This document shows, piece after piece, positions 28,855 through 37,537 of a DNA stretch of 41,928 nucleotides. This stretch comes from a virus. Both the position numbers and the translations under genes were made by a program. The first letter of the stretch is position 1. Every line of letters starts with the position of its first letter. The notes beneath the pieces are model-generated. The model was not told where the DNA came from. It made no database searches and saw only the letters and a program-made list of their open reading frames with translations. The stretch spans positions 1 through 41,928 of the IMG/VR virus record IMGVR_UViG_3300046511_000163; one strand, 5' to 3'.

Positions 28855-28871
28855 GTCTCCCCCGGGCATGA

Positions 28872-28910
28872 AGAGGCCCCCGGGAGCTACCACAGCAAGC
28901 GGGGGCCTCT
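28872..28910. terminator. Strong 10-bp hairpin at the upstream edge of a small membrane gene
   Basis: AGAGGCCCCC (28872-28881) pairs perfectly with GGGGGCCTCT (28901-28910) across a 19-nt loop. Neither strand has a U-tract, so it may stop or slow transcription inefficiently, or protect RNA ends. It bounds the leftward gene at 28690-28854. Confidence 0.45.
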
Positions 28911-29202
28911 GTCGCTTGACCCGAGTCTCAGGGCGGGTCTAGCGTGCGACTGTCTGAAGATCGCAGGTTGATGGTATCTGTCATCGCCTGTCGTCTCCAG
29001 TCATCAACTGGACACGATCACGCAACGCCGCGGCGGCGTGAAGCCGATCAGGACCCGGAAGGTCAACCGGAGCAACCCGCGTCAGAGGCGGTTGCGACCC
29101 TGTGCCGGAAAGGTCCCCGGCGGTTCGAGAGCATCCCCCCAACATCGTGGGGGGAGGGGGGGAGAGACACAGTGCGAAGCGCCATGGCTCCGAAGGAGCC
29201 CG
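28911..29202. other. Stretch with no convincing gene
   Basis: Open frames exist on the plus strand (28944-29210 and from 29038), but their composition is poor and no start is well supported. A 6-bp C/G hairpin at 29135-29154 (CCCCCC then GGGGGG) is followed by a second G-run at 29156-29162. A pair of small stem-loops at 28945-28985 looks faintly tRNA-like but lacks a T-loop consensus and a D-arm. Nothing else recognised. Confidence 0.5.
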
Positions 29203-29403: not shown

Positions 29404-29968
29404 TCAGATCCCGATCGACTGGCTGTCGCTGGTGTACTGCCACGGTCTCGAAGGTGTAGCCAGGAGGACACGCACCAGGTGGTGTCGACGGTCCAGGTGG
29501 ACCTGGTTCTCCTGGTGGGCCAGTTGGTCCTACCAGACCAGGTACACCAGGATCACCCTGTGGACCCCGCCGGCCTCTTCGACCTCGCTCACCCTCGGGA
29601 CCTGGCGGTCCACTGGGCCCTCGTGCTCCTGTTGTTCCTGGTGGTCCTTGCGCACCATCCCCGCCAGTAGTACCAGGAGCACCAGCTGGTCCAGTCAGAC
29701 CAGGGATGCCCGTGCCGTTGGCTCCAGTGGCTCCTATGGGACCCACAGGTCCCTGGGGTCCAGTAGGGCCTCTGGGACCCACAGGACCCACTACCAGAGA
29801 CGGTTCTGGACTACTCGGTGCCGTACTGGATGTAGATGACGAAGGAGGTGGTGGAGTCGGTGAGTTCGCTGGTGCAGGTGGGGTAGAGCCAGCGAACACC
29901 GACAGAGCTACTGCACATGCCGCCAGTGCTCCGGAGGAGCCGTATCCGATCCAGCCTCTAGGTCCCAT
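29372..29968 (-). CDS. Membrane-anchored or exported collagen-like protein
   Basis: A 198-residue protein. An N-terminal hydrophobic segment ([14 protein letters not shown], about residues 14-27) acts as signal or anchor. A Pro/Ser/Thr-rich linker follows, then uninterrupted G-X-Y collagen repeats at about 61-165 (for example [16 protein letters not shown]), then a short C-terminal piece with two cysteines (ACPPGYTF and VCVQDGQ). Collagen tracts form trimeric rods, here presumably outside the host membrane. The ATG overlaps the preceding small two-TM protein gene by 11 nt. It is away from the tail cluster, so it is less likely a virion fibre. Confidence 0.78.
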
Positions 29969-30212
29969 CGCTCTCGTCCCGCTGCTTCTTCATCGCCACG
30001 TCTGTTCTCCCAGCCAGGAAACCGGCCAGTAGACCGACCATGGTGGTGAGTAGGTCAGCGATCGTTCTGGCAGCTCCACCGAAGTCGAAGTTGGGGTTCT
30101 TCCAGGCCAGGATGAGAATCCCGAGCATTCCTACGACTACCGACCCGCACACCGTGCCGGCGATCATGATCACCATGATCTCGCCAGTGCTGCGGTCTTT
30201 CATCCTGGTCAT
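29958..30212 (-). CDS. Two-TM membrane protein, holin-like
   Basis: An 84-residue protein. TM1 is about residues 11-33 ([20 protein letters not shown] and following), TM2 about 45-67 ([17 protein letters not shown]). The C-terminus is charged ([16 protein letters not shown]). ATG at 30212 ([11 protein letters not shown]) was chosen because the upstream in-frame part is unsuitable and AGGGGG lies 9-14 nt upstream. It is translationally coupled to the collagen-like gene. Topology resembles class II holins, but it could be a partner anchoring the collagen-like protein. Confidence 0.68.
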
Positions 30213-30249
30213 CGGCTCATACCCCCTGGTCTCACGGTAGGTCACAGGG

Positions 30250-30278
30250 TTGTGCGAATGTCGTGTATAGCGTATAAT
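30250..30278 (+). promoter_or_regulatory. Strong rightward sigma-70-type promoter
   Basis: TTGTGC (30250-30255), a 17-nt spacer, and a perfect TATAAT (30273-30278). Transcription would start near 30285. A 12-bp perfect palindrome TCATGTACATGA (30278-30289) covers the start region and could be an operator. The leftward genes at 30212 and 29968 diverge from this point; TATAC sequences in the same interval may provide their -10. Confidence 0.8.
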
Positions 30279-30284
30279 CATGTA

Positions 30285-30420
30285 CATGAGGTTGTTACCT
30301 CTGAAGATCGACCAGCTCCTTCTGTGTGGAGCCCGATCTTCCGGAGTCACCCGGATAAGTCCTCTACTGAGAGGCACCGACACTCCCGAGCAGGCCGGCT
30401 CCTCTGATCGAGGACCGGCC
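30285..30420 (+). ncRNA. Predicted structured RNA downstream of the first rightward promoter
   Basis: There is no gene. Successive stems are visible: GAGGT/ACCTC (30288-30301, loop TGTT); GAAGATCG (30303-30310) with CGATCTTC about 23 nt later, containing an inner CTCC/GGAG; CCTCT/AGAGG (30361-30374); and GGCCGG plus TCCTC (from 30393) with GAGGA plus CCGGCC (ending 30420), an 11-bp stem with one bulged C. The last stem is followed by CTTG rather than a long U-tract. The run of stems behind a strong promoter suggests a functional RNA or leader; no known family recognised. Confidence 0.55.
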
Positions 30421-30421
30421 C

Positions 30422-30451
30422 TTGTGCGTTATGTAGTGTCTGTGATACAAT
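30422..30451 (+). promoter_or_regulatory. Second rightward promoter
   Basis: TTGTGC (30422-30427), the same -35 as the first promoter, with an 18-nt spacer and TACAAT (30446-30451). Start near 30458. Tandem promoters with identical -35 hexamers suggest the same (host) sigma factor and strong expression of the right arm. Confidence 0.7.
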
Positions 30452-30457
30452 GAACGT

Positions 30458-30571
30458 AGTGCTTCAGGGACCTGTGCCCTGACTCACTACCCTCTCCCGG
30501 ACCCCATGTACGGGGGAGGGGATACGACCCGGTGTCGGAGAAGGCTCATACCCTCTCCGGCACCGGGTTTC
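30458..30571 (+). ncRNA. Hairpin-rich leader with terminator-like final stem
   Basis: Three stems: TCAGGG/CCCTGA (30464-30482), CCCTCTCCC/GGGGGAGGG (30490-30520, one wobble), and a 14-bp stem of CCCGGTG plus TCGGAGA (30528-30541) with TCTCCGG plus CACCGGG (30554-30567, one wobble), followed by TTT. It would act as an attenuator or yield a short RNA of about 110 nt ahead of the first right-arm gene. TGCATGTCC follows at 30572, as after the RNA at 33911-33973. Confidence 0.55.
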
Positions 30572-30594
30572 TGCATGTCCAGACACTGAAAGGG

Positions 30595-30924
30595 ATGAGA
30601 ACGACGAACGAGATCGAGCACATTCACATGGGTCCACCCGAAGAGGGACAGACCCCGATGGAGGACTACGCGCTGCAGTACCTGATCCTCGGCTGTTGGC
30701 GAGGCGCTGCTGCGTTCGAGAGCTTCCCGATCAAGATCGACCACATCGAGGACAACGTCGACGAGGACGGGACCATCCAGTCCTTCACCATCGTCACTGC
30801 CTCTGGTCTGCGGTTCACCACCTACGTGACCTACGAGGGTCCTCCACCGACCCCGAACACCAAGGAGGAGAACATCGAGTTCCGCAAGGACTGGGATGAG
30901 CGAGTCGAGCGGGGAAAGTCATGA
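30595..30924 (+). CDS. First right-arm protein, function unknown
   Basis: A 109-residue protein starting MRTTNEIEHIHMGPPEEGQT, with SGLRFTTYVTYEGPPPTPN later. Acidic, mixed alpha/beta. The ATG at 30595 is directly preceded by GAAAGGG; the in-frame upstream extension lies in the leader hairpin and was rejected. First gene of the rightward transcript, so probably an early, host-directed product. Confidence 0.72.
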   Translation: MRTTNEIEHIHMGPPEEGQTPMEDYALQYLILGCWRGAAAFESFPIKIDHIEDNVDEDGTIQSFTIVTASGLRFTTYVTYEGPPPTPNTKEENIEFRKDWDERVERGKS

Positions 30925-31271
30925 AGACCTGGGTGCTGTGGACGCACTACGACTGCGAGATCTACGTGTCCCTCCATCCCAGCGAGGAGCGTGCCTGGGA
31001 CGAGCTGAAAGCCAACTGGCTGGAGGACTGCGACGAGGACTGTGGTCACAACCCCGAGGAGGGGATGTCGATCTCGGAGATCGCCTCGGCACTGGAGTAC
31101 CACGTCGACGAGCTGGAGTTCGGCATCAGCGAGTTCGAGGTACCTCAGCCAGTCACCGAAGCTCTACAGCTGGCTCTACAGCCCGTAGAGAGCGCGGAAC
31201 GGAACTCGATGCCCGAAGCGACCGCGGGTGATCTGCTGTCGAAGCTGCAGACCTACCAGGGGTCGTCATGA
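30921..31271 (+). CDS. Hypothetical acidic right-arm protein
   Basis: A 116-residue protein starting MKTWVLWTHYDCEIYVSLHP. The N-terminal part has the look of a compact alpha/beta domain, followed by an acidic segment EDCDEDCGHNPEEG and a helical C-terminus. ATGA overlaps with both neighbours show it belongs to a tight unit. No known family. Confidence 0.7.
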   Translation: MKTWVLWTHYDCEIYVSLHPSEERAWDELKANWLEDCDEDCGHNPEEGMSISEIASALEYHVDELEFGISEFEVPQPVTEALQLALQPVESAERNSMPEATAGDLLSKLQTYQGSS

Positions 31272-31381
31272 AGACCCTGGTCTACCGCGCTGTCCACACC
31301 ACTCTCCTGGTGGTGGGGCACATCGGCGGCAAGGTCATGGAGAAGATCACCCGCTCCGAGCAGAGAGGAACCGGCGAGTGA
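31268..31381 (+). CDS. 37-residue hypothetical peptide
   Basis: MKTLVYRAVHTTLLVVGHIG then GKVMEKITRSEQRGTGE: a weakly hydrophobic N-terminus and a charged tail. The ATG overlaps the preceding stop and its own stop overlaps the next GTG, the main evidence that it is translated. Function unknown. Confidence 0.6.
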   Translation: MKTLVYRAVHTTLLVVGHIGGKVMEKITRSEQRGTGE

Positions 31382-31725
31382 ACGTCGAGGAAGAGATGCC
31401 CTGGCTCACTGCCAAGGTCGATCAGCGAGTGGAGTTCATGGTTGAGAAAGGCGCTCTGGACATCGCTCGGGAGGCAGGCACGAACTTCATCATGAGCCTG
31501 CTCGACGAGGGCGAAGAGGACATGCCGGCTGAAGAGATAGAGCGCTGGGAACGGACCTGTGACAACTGCGGGAAGTACGTCCCTCCCGAAGCTGAGAGGC
31601 CGAACTACACCGAGTTCTACAGCGGATATGTCACCCGCACCGTCGAGGGAGTCCAGATCATGCTGGCCTTCGGCGTCTGCGGTACCTGCAAGGAAGACCA
31701 CACCATGAAAGGAACTGACGAGTGA
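31378..31725 (+). CDS. Zinc-binding hypothetical protein
   Basis: A 115-residue protein from GTG at 31378 with AGAGGA upstream. A helical first half (KVDQRVEFMVEKGALDIARE) precedes two Cys pairs, TCDNCGKYV and VCGTCKED, separated by about 45 residues with GYVTRTVEGVQIM. A four-cysteine zinc domain is likely. The final MKGTDE is encoded by the start motif for the next gene. Function unknown. Confidence 0.7.
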   Translation: MNVEEEMPWLTAKVDQRVEFMVEKGALDIAREAGTNFIMSLLDEGEEDMPAEEIERWERTCDNCGKYVPPEAERPNYTEFYSGYVTRTVEGVQIMLAFGVCGTCKEDHTMKGTDE

Positions 31726-33898: not shown

Positions 33899-33904
33899 TA
33901 TAAT
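33899..33904 (+). promoter_or_regulatory. Rightward promoter -10 element
   Basis: Perfect TATAAT at 33899-33904 in an AT-rich stretch that stands out from the surroundings. The expected -35 position holds T-rich GGTTTT-like sequence, not a consensus hexamer, so activity may depend on an activator or on a strong -10. Start predicted near 33911. Confidence 0.6.
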
Positions 33905-33910
33905 AAGAGG

Positions 33911-33973
33911 GTCAGGGCGACTGCATACCCTGATACGTGCGAAAGGCCTCCAGTTACGGCTGGGGGCCTTTTT
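33911..33973 (+). ncRNA. Predicted short RNA or attenuator with intrinsic terminator
   Basis: Directly after the -10: hairpin TCAGGG/CCCTGA (33912-33933), then a terminator stem AGGCCTCCAG/CTGGGGGCCT (33944-33969, one wobble, 6-nt loop) with TTTT continuing to 33973. About 63 nt in all, with no room for a gene. The first hairpin has the same arms as the one at 30464-30482. It is either a stand-alone small RNA or an attenuator for 34011 onward. Confidence 0.65.
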
Positions 33974-34010
33974 GCATGTCCACCCACAGATACATGAATA
34001 GGAGCTCCCC

Positions 34011-35079: not shown

Positions 35080-35126
35080 ACATCTCGGGATGTCTAGCCC
35101 CCGTCACATCGGTGTGGCGGGGGTTT
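35076..35126 (+). terminator. Double hairpin with terminator overlapping a stop codon
   Basis: A perfect 9-bp stem CTAGACATC/GATGTCTAG with tetraloop TCGG (35076-35097) is followed at once by a 10-bp stem, CCCCCG plus TCAC paired with GTGG plus CGGGGG (35098-35123, one wobble), and TTT. An intrinsic terminator or attenuator between the zinc-finger/TM unit and the next unit. Confidence 0.72.
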
Positions 35127-35158
35127 GTTATGTCCACCTCGAAAGGAACAGATAGCAC

Positions 35159-37313: not shown

Positions 37314-37429
37314 GGACCCCCAGAGGTCGGCATCTCTGGGGGCCCTGCTCACCATGAAAGGAATGAGCTGCCAGCGTAGCTGACATCTCGCAGAGGGGTC
37401 TCTCCAAGGGGAAAGGAGAGGCCCCTCTG
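37314..37429 (+). terminator. Two strong intergenic hairpins
   Basis: Stem 1: CCCCCAGAG (37317-37325) with CTCTGGGGG (37334-37342), 9 bp, with flanking GG/CC. Stem 2: CAGAGGGGTCTCTCC (37391-37405) with GGAGAGGCCCCTCTG (37415-37429), 15 bp with one wobble and a 9-nt loop, followed by GCATGTCC. Between them is a minimal start motif and nine-codon frame. No long U-tract; likely attenuation or processing signals. Confidence 0.6.
37354..37383 (+). CDS. Possible nine-codon leader peptide
   Basis: The start motif ATGAAAGGAA is itself the start of a tiny frame, MKGMSCQRS, ending in TGA at 37383, placed between two hairpins. It may simply be the motif without a gene, or a leader peptide whose translation affects the second hairpin. 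Confidence 0.25.
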   Translation: MKGMSCQRS

Positions 37430-37537
37430 GCATGTCCGGATGGCGTGATCGCTTCCTCTCCGCATGGGGCGAAGAGGAGGTGTTCGAGTCATCCGGCTCA
37501 CACATAGATGCACCACACCATGAAGAGGAAACACATC
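37430..37537 (+). other. Leader of the exported-protein gene
   Basis: An open frame (from ATG 37432) runs through here but is only a shadow of later genes. Just before the next gene, ATGAAGAGGAA (37520-37530) supplies the start element. No promoter recognised. Confidence 0.35.

Follow-up and report, generated by a model that had tools for sequence, protein, structure and literature searches.

A conserved locus of two predicted promoters, covarying RNA structure and a terminator-like hairpin precedes the right-arm genes of a group of uncultivated viruses

The DNA analyzed here (hereafter "the window", 41,928 nucleotides, i.e., the whole 41.9 kb record of an uncultivated virus with 63% GC) carries, immediately ahead of its rightward genes, a non-coding leader locus with two promoters, P1 and P2, and two structured RNA segments, RNA1 and RNA2. 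Homologous leaders were found in 12 distinct uncultivated viruses (window included), and comparing them computationally shows that promoters, helices, terminator and their order are all conserved. As about a dozen related phages keep this order, with base pairs that survive through compensating mutations, we consider the locus a real RNA control element. It probably consists of promoter-terminator leader cassettes, which would produce structured RNAs and gate the downstream genes by read-through.

The locus sits at the point where two gene blocks diverge: leftward genes for a giant tail-fibre-like protein, a DnaE polymerase, a primase and a DnaB helicase, and rightward genes (from 30595 onward) that are short and mostly without an assigned family. 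The first right-arm gene had no PHROG or Pfam match (the start of the protein in L034 resembles that of its product), the second right-arm protein had no match in named phages, and a tRNA search of the window with ARAGORN returned none. Cultured relatives are distant (Gordonia phages, e.g., ChisanaKitsune and GMA6, with ~33% identity for the polymerase and 29% for the helicase), and the sole match in a cellular genome, a 29% polymerase relative in an alphaproteobacterial MAG, is uninformative on the host. Just upstream of the divergent leftward gene, at 30230-30240, lies a conserved CTC(C)ACGGTAA element (window variant CTCACGGTAGG), also seen in relatives, which in L004 pairs with CGTTACCGTGGAG as a 14-bp inverted repeat. 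In some relatives P1 is separated from the leftward gene by inserted rightward fibre/collagen-like genes (L004, 1480-3770; L031, upstream of P1), so that the leader stays with the right arm.

Table 1. Features of the leader locus and of related units in the window, and the homologous loci of other viruses (RBS, ribosome binding site).
Feature	Position	Strand	Description
Promoter P1	30250..30278	+	TTGTGC-17-TATAAT, spacer GAATGTCGTGTATAGCG; profile score 35.0
ATG at predicted +1 of P1 (leaderless AUG)	30286..30288	+	Start site inferred from the -10 box
RNA1	30286..30421	+	5' hairpin 30288-30301, second hairpin 30303-30341, then conserved core
RNA1 core (model R1)	30341..30427	+	11 viruses at E<1e-6; covariation
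Core helix A	30343-30347/30382-30386		
Core helix B	30352-30354/30377-30379		
Core helix C	30361-30365/30370-30374		
Core helix D	30393-30398/30415-30420		
Promoter P2	30422..30451	+	TTGTGC-18-TACAAT, extended -10 (TGA-TACAAT), directly 3' of helix D; profile score 35.7
RNA2	30458..30572	+	Stem-loops 30458-30488, 30490-30520 and terminal 30526-30569, then TCT
Intrinsic-terminator-like hairpin before first right-arm gene	30526..30569	+	Helix covaries (model R2)
CATGTCC motif	30574..30580	+	Just past the T-run
First right-arm gene	30595..30924	+	ORF read from sequence; ATG 25 bases past the terminal stem
Second cassette	33899..33981	+	TATAAT 33899-33904, hairpin from ~33911, terminator hairpin to ~33970, TTTTTGCATGTCC, RBS, gene
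Promoterless cassette relative	35094..35135	+	Hairpin 35094-35127, TTTGTTATGTCC, RBS, gene
Hairpin followed by GGCATGTCC, without T-run	37391..37436	+	Hairpin 37391-37429; without cassette-type promoter
Leader loci in other viruses			G001/L004, G016/L031, G010/L029, G013/L034, G006/L014, G008/L015, G007/L020, G011/L027, G012/L028 (most diverged), G005/L042, G017/L066

Relatives were collected by searching viral contigs with the polymerase, with right-arm proteins and with DNA patterns, and by searching their records with the models, and all those bearing a leader are metagenomic contigs, mostly fragments. Viral contigs gave no hits to two strict DNA patterns, whereas looser patterns succeeded; blastn of 29500-31500, of the cassette and of the L029 leader gave no match among named phage records. 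The order kept in these viruses is P1, RNA1, a GGCC hairpin abutting TTGTGC, P2, RNA2, terminator, T-run, CATGYCC, RBS and first gene, and L028 retains it with another hairpin and a -35 box of TTGCTG. The distance from P1 to P2 ranges from 127 to 267 bases in the viruses measured, and the outer hairpins vary.

Both tandem promoters lie exactly where a preliminary description of this DNA had put them. Under a profile trained on the P1 and P2 sites of nine viruses, the window not among them, their scores (Table 1) compare with 11.0 for the third best site over 42 kb and both strands, and with 6.6-14.7 for Markov-shuffled sequence; TTGTGC-N15-20-TAnnnT otherwise occurs just once in the window, as a poor site at 1353 on the opposite strand. 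Each combines -35 and -10 hexamers within the 16-19 spacing of sigma-70 promoters and has a canonical -10 box, extended at P2 in the window and most relatives. A generic sigma-70 scan nevertheless misses both, because the -35 boxes of the window match TTGACA at just 3/6 positions. That the two -35 boxes are identical, as first described, is true of the window but of only a few other viruses. Each of the 11 other viruses has an ortholog of P1, which usually combines a TTGACA-like -35 box with a TGTsGTGTAT spacer motif, and TTGTGC is nearly fixed at P2 (11 of 12 viruses), where it also forms the 3' flank of the RNA1 hairpin. P1 and P2 share the spacer motif TGTmGTGTAT, with a likeness of 13.9/23 identities (6.9 for shuffles), and this within-virus mean exceeds the 12.5 between viruses (permutation p 0.01), a slight difference which is no more than suggestive of co-variation of the two spacers within a virus.

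In 10 of the 12 viruses an ATG lies close to the predicted P1 start (+1), and in nine AG follows it (ATGAG). P1 could thus yield a leaderless mRNA with a short peptide controlling the leader by translation-coupled attenuation, which we regard as very unlikely: the ATG is absent in L029 and L028, ATGAG may alternatively be the foot of a 5' hairpin, and the open reading frame, 55 codons long in the window, has counterparts of 9, 14, 20, 23, 27, 28, 43, 124 and 130 codons whose peptides resemble each other only in the close pair L015/L027. A protein-coding reading of 30286-30453 was likewise rejected, as neither peptides nor lengths are conserved, and the absence of a gene across this segment stands as originally described.

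Shuffled versions of 30285-30595 fold at -112.9 +/- 6.1 kcal/mol and the segment itself at -148.5 (z -5.8; RNA1 -4.2, RNA2 -6.2), with about seven stem-loops, in line with the "at least seven stems" first counted. Many stable stems do arise in a genome of 63% GC, and the segment might then be an ordinary untranslated region with chance hairpins. Given these z-scores we find this hardly credible, and it is already contradicted by compensatory changes far above all controls. The R1 covariance model of the RNA1 core (83 positions, 23 pairs, built from five viruses) finds six viruses outside its training set with E 3e-7 to 3e-17, E-values of such home-made models being rough. Across the 11-row alignment 95.3% of cells pair and 17 of the 23 pairs show compensatory change (47 cells), counts to be read knowing that the alignment is fitted to the model, which favours it, and that the rows are related, so that compensatory cells are not independent events. 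Shuffled controls average 7.6 pairs and 10.8 cells (0/500 reach the observed values), and controls with a slid structure never exceed 6 pairs and 12 cells.

Folded one by one and without constraints, the cores took the same overall shape in nine viruses, and the hairpin near the RNA1 5' end folds or is readable in most relatives. For the terminal helix of RNA2, aligned with MAFFT and not fitted to a model, 95% of cells pair, with compensatory change in 5 of 15 pairs (8 cells; 1.7 pairs and 1.9 cells in shuffles). Compensation of the stems among relatives, the check proposed at the outset, was therefore clearly passed by both the RNA1 core and the RNA2 terminal helix. The initial statement that no known RNA family is present also holds, with no Rfam match in the window at the curated gathering threshold and below-threshold matches around the locus (L001) being miRNA-type or fragment noise. 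Within RNA2 of one relative (L004, complement 881-816) lies a tRNA-like element (RF00005, 48.1 bits, gathering 29) between hairpins 1 and 2, in which the anticodon stem has 5 bp, its loop only 3 nt, and CCA is lacking; ARAGORN makes no call on it, and it may represent a processing signal or else a tRNA in decay.

Downstream, all 12 viruses have a terminator-like hairpin shortly upstream of the RBS of the first gene, so that the locus shows the GC-rich hairpin and T-run ahead of a gene that characterize an attenuator or terminated leader. The preliminary description had the segment end with a 14-bp stem plus TTT: the long last stem is present, but the T-run of the window is weak (TTTCTG; TTTTT or TTTTTT in most relatives) and termination there may thus be weak. 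Since the 25 bases left between hairpin and gene in the window offer no room for a promoter, right-arm mRNA would come from read-through of P1 or P2 transcripts, or from a later start, and this short gap therefore argues for a terminated leader. These results agree with the earlier suggestion of an attenuated leader or of one or two small RNAs, as the stems covary, both promoters are conserved and the terminator directly precedes the first gene.

The mechanism we propose is as follows. P1 and P2, both sigma-70-like, would start two structured non-coding RNAs, with RNA1 extending from P1 as far as the GGCC hairpin next to P2, and RNA2 from P2 to the strong hairpin and T-run that would end it 25 bases before the first start codon. 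Most transcripts would stop at the terminator and persist as short hairpin-capped RNAs, and the right-arm mRNA would be the fraction reading past it. We infer the transcription, termination and stability of the leader RNAs, and their control of read-through, from the conserved anatomy. Besides the weak T-run of the window, what counts against this scheme is that CATGTCC is conserved past the T-run, and a simple small RNA ending at the T-run leaves it unexplained.

The right arms of most of these viruses also contain a recurrent shorter unit (promoter, hairpin RNA mostly of 70-130 nt, terminator, GCATGTCC), usually with an upstream promoter resembling TGTmGTGTnTGTGATAYAAT. The 25 cassette RNAs measure 70-193 nt, and almost all start with a hairpin near +1 and end in a terminator hairpin. 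Exact matches to the pattern TTTNCATGTCC number 14, spread over 11 virus records, and the reversed pattern has none; every match lies on the right-arm strand, and each one inspected is 3' of a terminator hairpin. The first suggestion, of a switch gating the whole right arm, has to allow for at least one such further promoter-terminator unit within the arm of the window, downstream of the leader locus (33899-33981), with orthologs in G001 and G016 (L047, L048). G009 has two cassettes, yet R1 finds nothing there. Judging from these recurring patterns, this virus group seems to use the cassette as a general means of control. Secondary cassettes in L043, L045 and L059 have structured non-coding sequence (GGAACCTGCGGG...) past the terminator and no obvious RBS soon after it, so some copies would not act directly as the gate of a gene. 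On the opposite strand, a leftward hairpin followed by TCTTCATGCCC and GGGGGAGACATGA (window 28864-28913, minus strand) resembles the right-arm cassettes.

Compact, hairpin-capped RNAs with their own promoters and several paralogous cassettes per virus could also be mainly trans-acting small RNAs pairing with phage or host mRNAs, the terminator and gene being merely adjacent. RNA2 of the five nearest relatives has a C-rich apical loop, CCCCAUG, and C-rich loops of this kind are a loop type known in Gram-positive small RNAs. However, loops and most of the primary sequence are not conserved across the virus group, the next gene invariably follows the terminator closely at the leader locus, and CATG is only mildly above chance in cassette bodies (13/25 vs. 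7.4), which makes this a quite unlikely explanation. CATG as a kissing or binding motif in RNA loops was also rejected, its enrichment being only mild.

The arrangement of RNA1 relative to the promoters allows another, attractive possibility, in which RNA1 is a cis-acting processive antiterminator like HK022 putRNA, such that P1 transcripts carry RNA1 and pass both the RNA2 terminator and those further on, and P2 transcripts lack it and stop as small RNAs. P1 lies upstream and P2 downstream of RNA1 in 12/12 viruses, each virus yields a single strong match to the RNA1 core, where the arm begins, and terminator-like hairpins recur downstream on the same strand. RNA1 is also multi-helical, with conserved unpaired positions between helices, and putRNA provides a precedent as a promoter-proximal structured phage RNA ahead of operon terminators (PMC9378689). 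Suppression of termination by put is experimentally tested, whereas RNA1 is known from sequence and lacks any Rfam match to a known RNA. Its 3' hairpin could moreover itself terminate, and we hold antitermination by RNA1 to be unlikely. A combined scheme, with a multi-copy RNA regulon (promoter of the TGTmGTGTnTGTGATAYAAT type, short hairpin RNA, terminator, CATGTCC tag) and a single RNA1 cis-antiterminator letting P1 polymerase through all units, seems rather unlikely.

Returning to the terminated leader, a close comparison is with the Pleft region of mycobacteriophages L5, D29 and StarStuff, where an early promoter of an actinophage is followed by hundreds of non-coding bases without a conserved ORF and a termination region ahead of gene one of the operon (PMC5712189). 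In L5/D29, Pleft yields a stable non-coding RNA of roughly 500 nt, with about 90% termination ahead of the first gene, and one part of the region resisted deletion (PMC5712189). At the sequence level, our locus has a comparable anatomy, with a promoter-proximal non-coding stretch, no conserved ORF and a significant fold. L5 differs in having one mapped promoter, repressor-bound stoperators and a position at the genome end (PMC5712189), whereas the present locus lies mid-genome at a point of divergence and has two promoters, an RNA core with covariation, a terminator set sharply against the first gene, and repeated cassettes; blastn of 29500-31500 and of the L029 leader detected no similarity to the cluster A right end. 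Another phage leader RNA, IsrK of the Salmonella prophage Gifsy-1, is a small RNA when terminated and an mRNA when read through, but belongs to another phage group and acts in trans on the read-through mRNA and via an antiterminator gene (PMC4825925). Our best reading is that the leader works like that of L5/D29 Pleft or IsrK, by analogy and without evidence of shared ancestry.

The repeated cassettes recall the SAS/ESAS elements of cluster K mycobacteriophages, repeated inverted-repeat elements before a subset of right-arm genes in nearly always one orientation (PMC3203893). ESAS are 17-bp inverted repeats tied to a start-site motif, GGGATAGGAGCCC (the 13-bp SAS; PMC3203893), unlike the cassettes, which comprise promoter, RNA, terminator and CATGTCC. 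By eye, no GGGATAGGAGCCC-type motif precedes the first gene (30526-30600), and a partial ATAGGAGCTCCCC occurs at 33998-34010, before the gene following the second cassette. The Gordonia phages ChisanaKitsune and GMA6 have an unannotated divergent gap of ~1.1 kb at the same place relative to the helicase operon (L039 5806-6967 and L040 5980-7033, respectively), with one strong promoter, a long structured non-coding leader and recurring TACTGCGA...ACGCGAGCT motifs. R1 had no match in these two phages, and R2 none in the divergent gap.

Actinophage leader RNAs such as the L5 Pleft RNA are abundant, associated with host toxicity and unexplained. The locus described here offers an RNA family with covariation-supported structure, an anatomy defined in 12 viruses and a repeated minimal version, making structure-function tests possible, and the R1 and R2 models can be used to annotate a class of phage intergenic regions that is now left blank.
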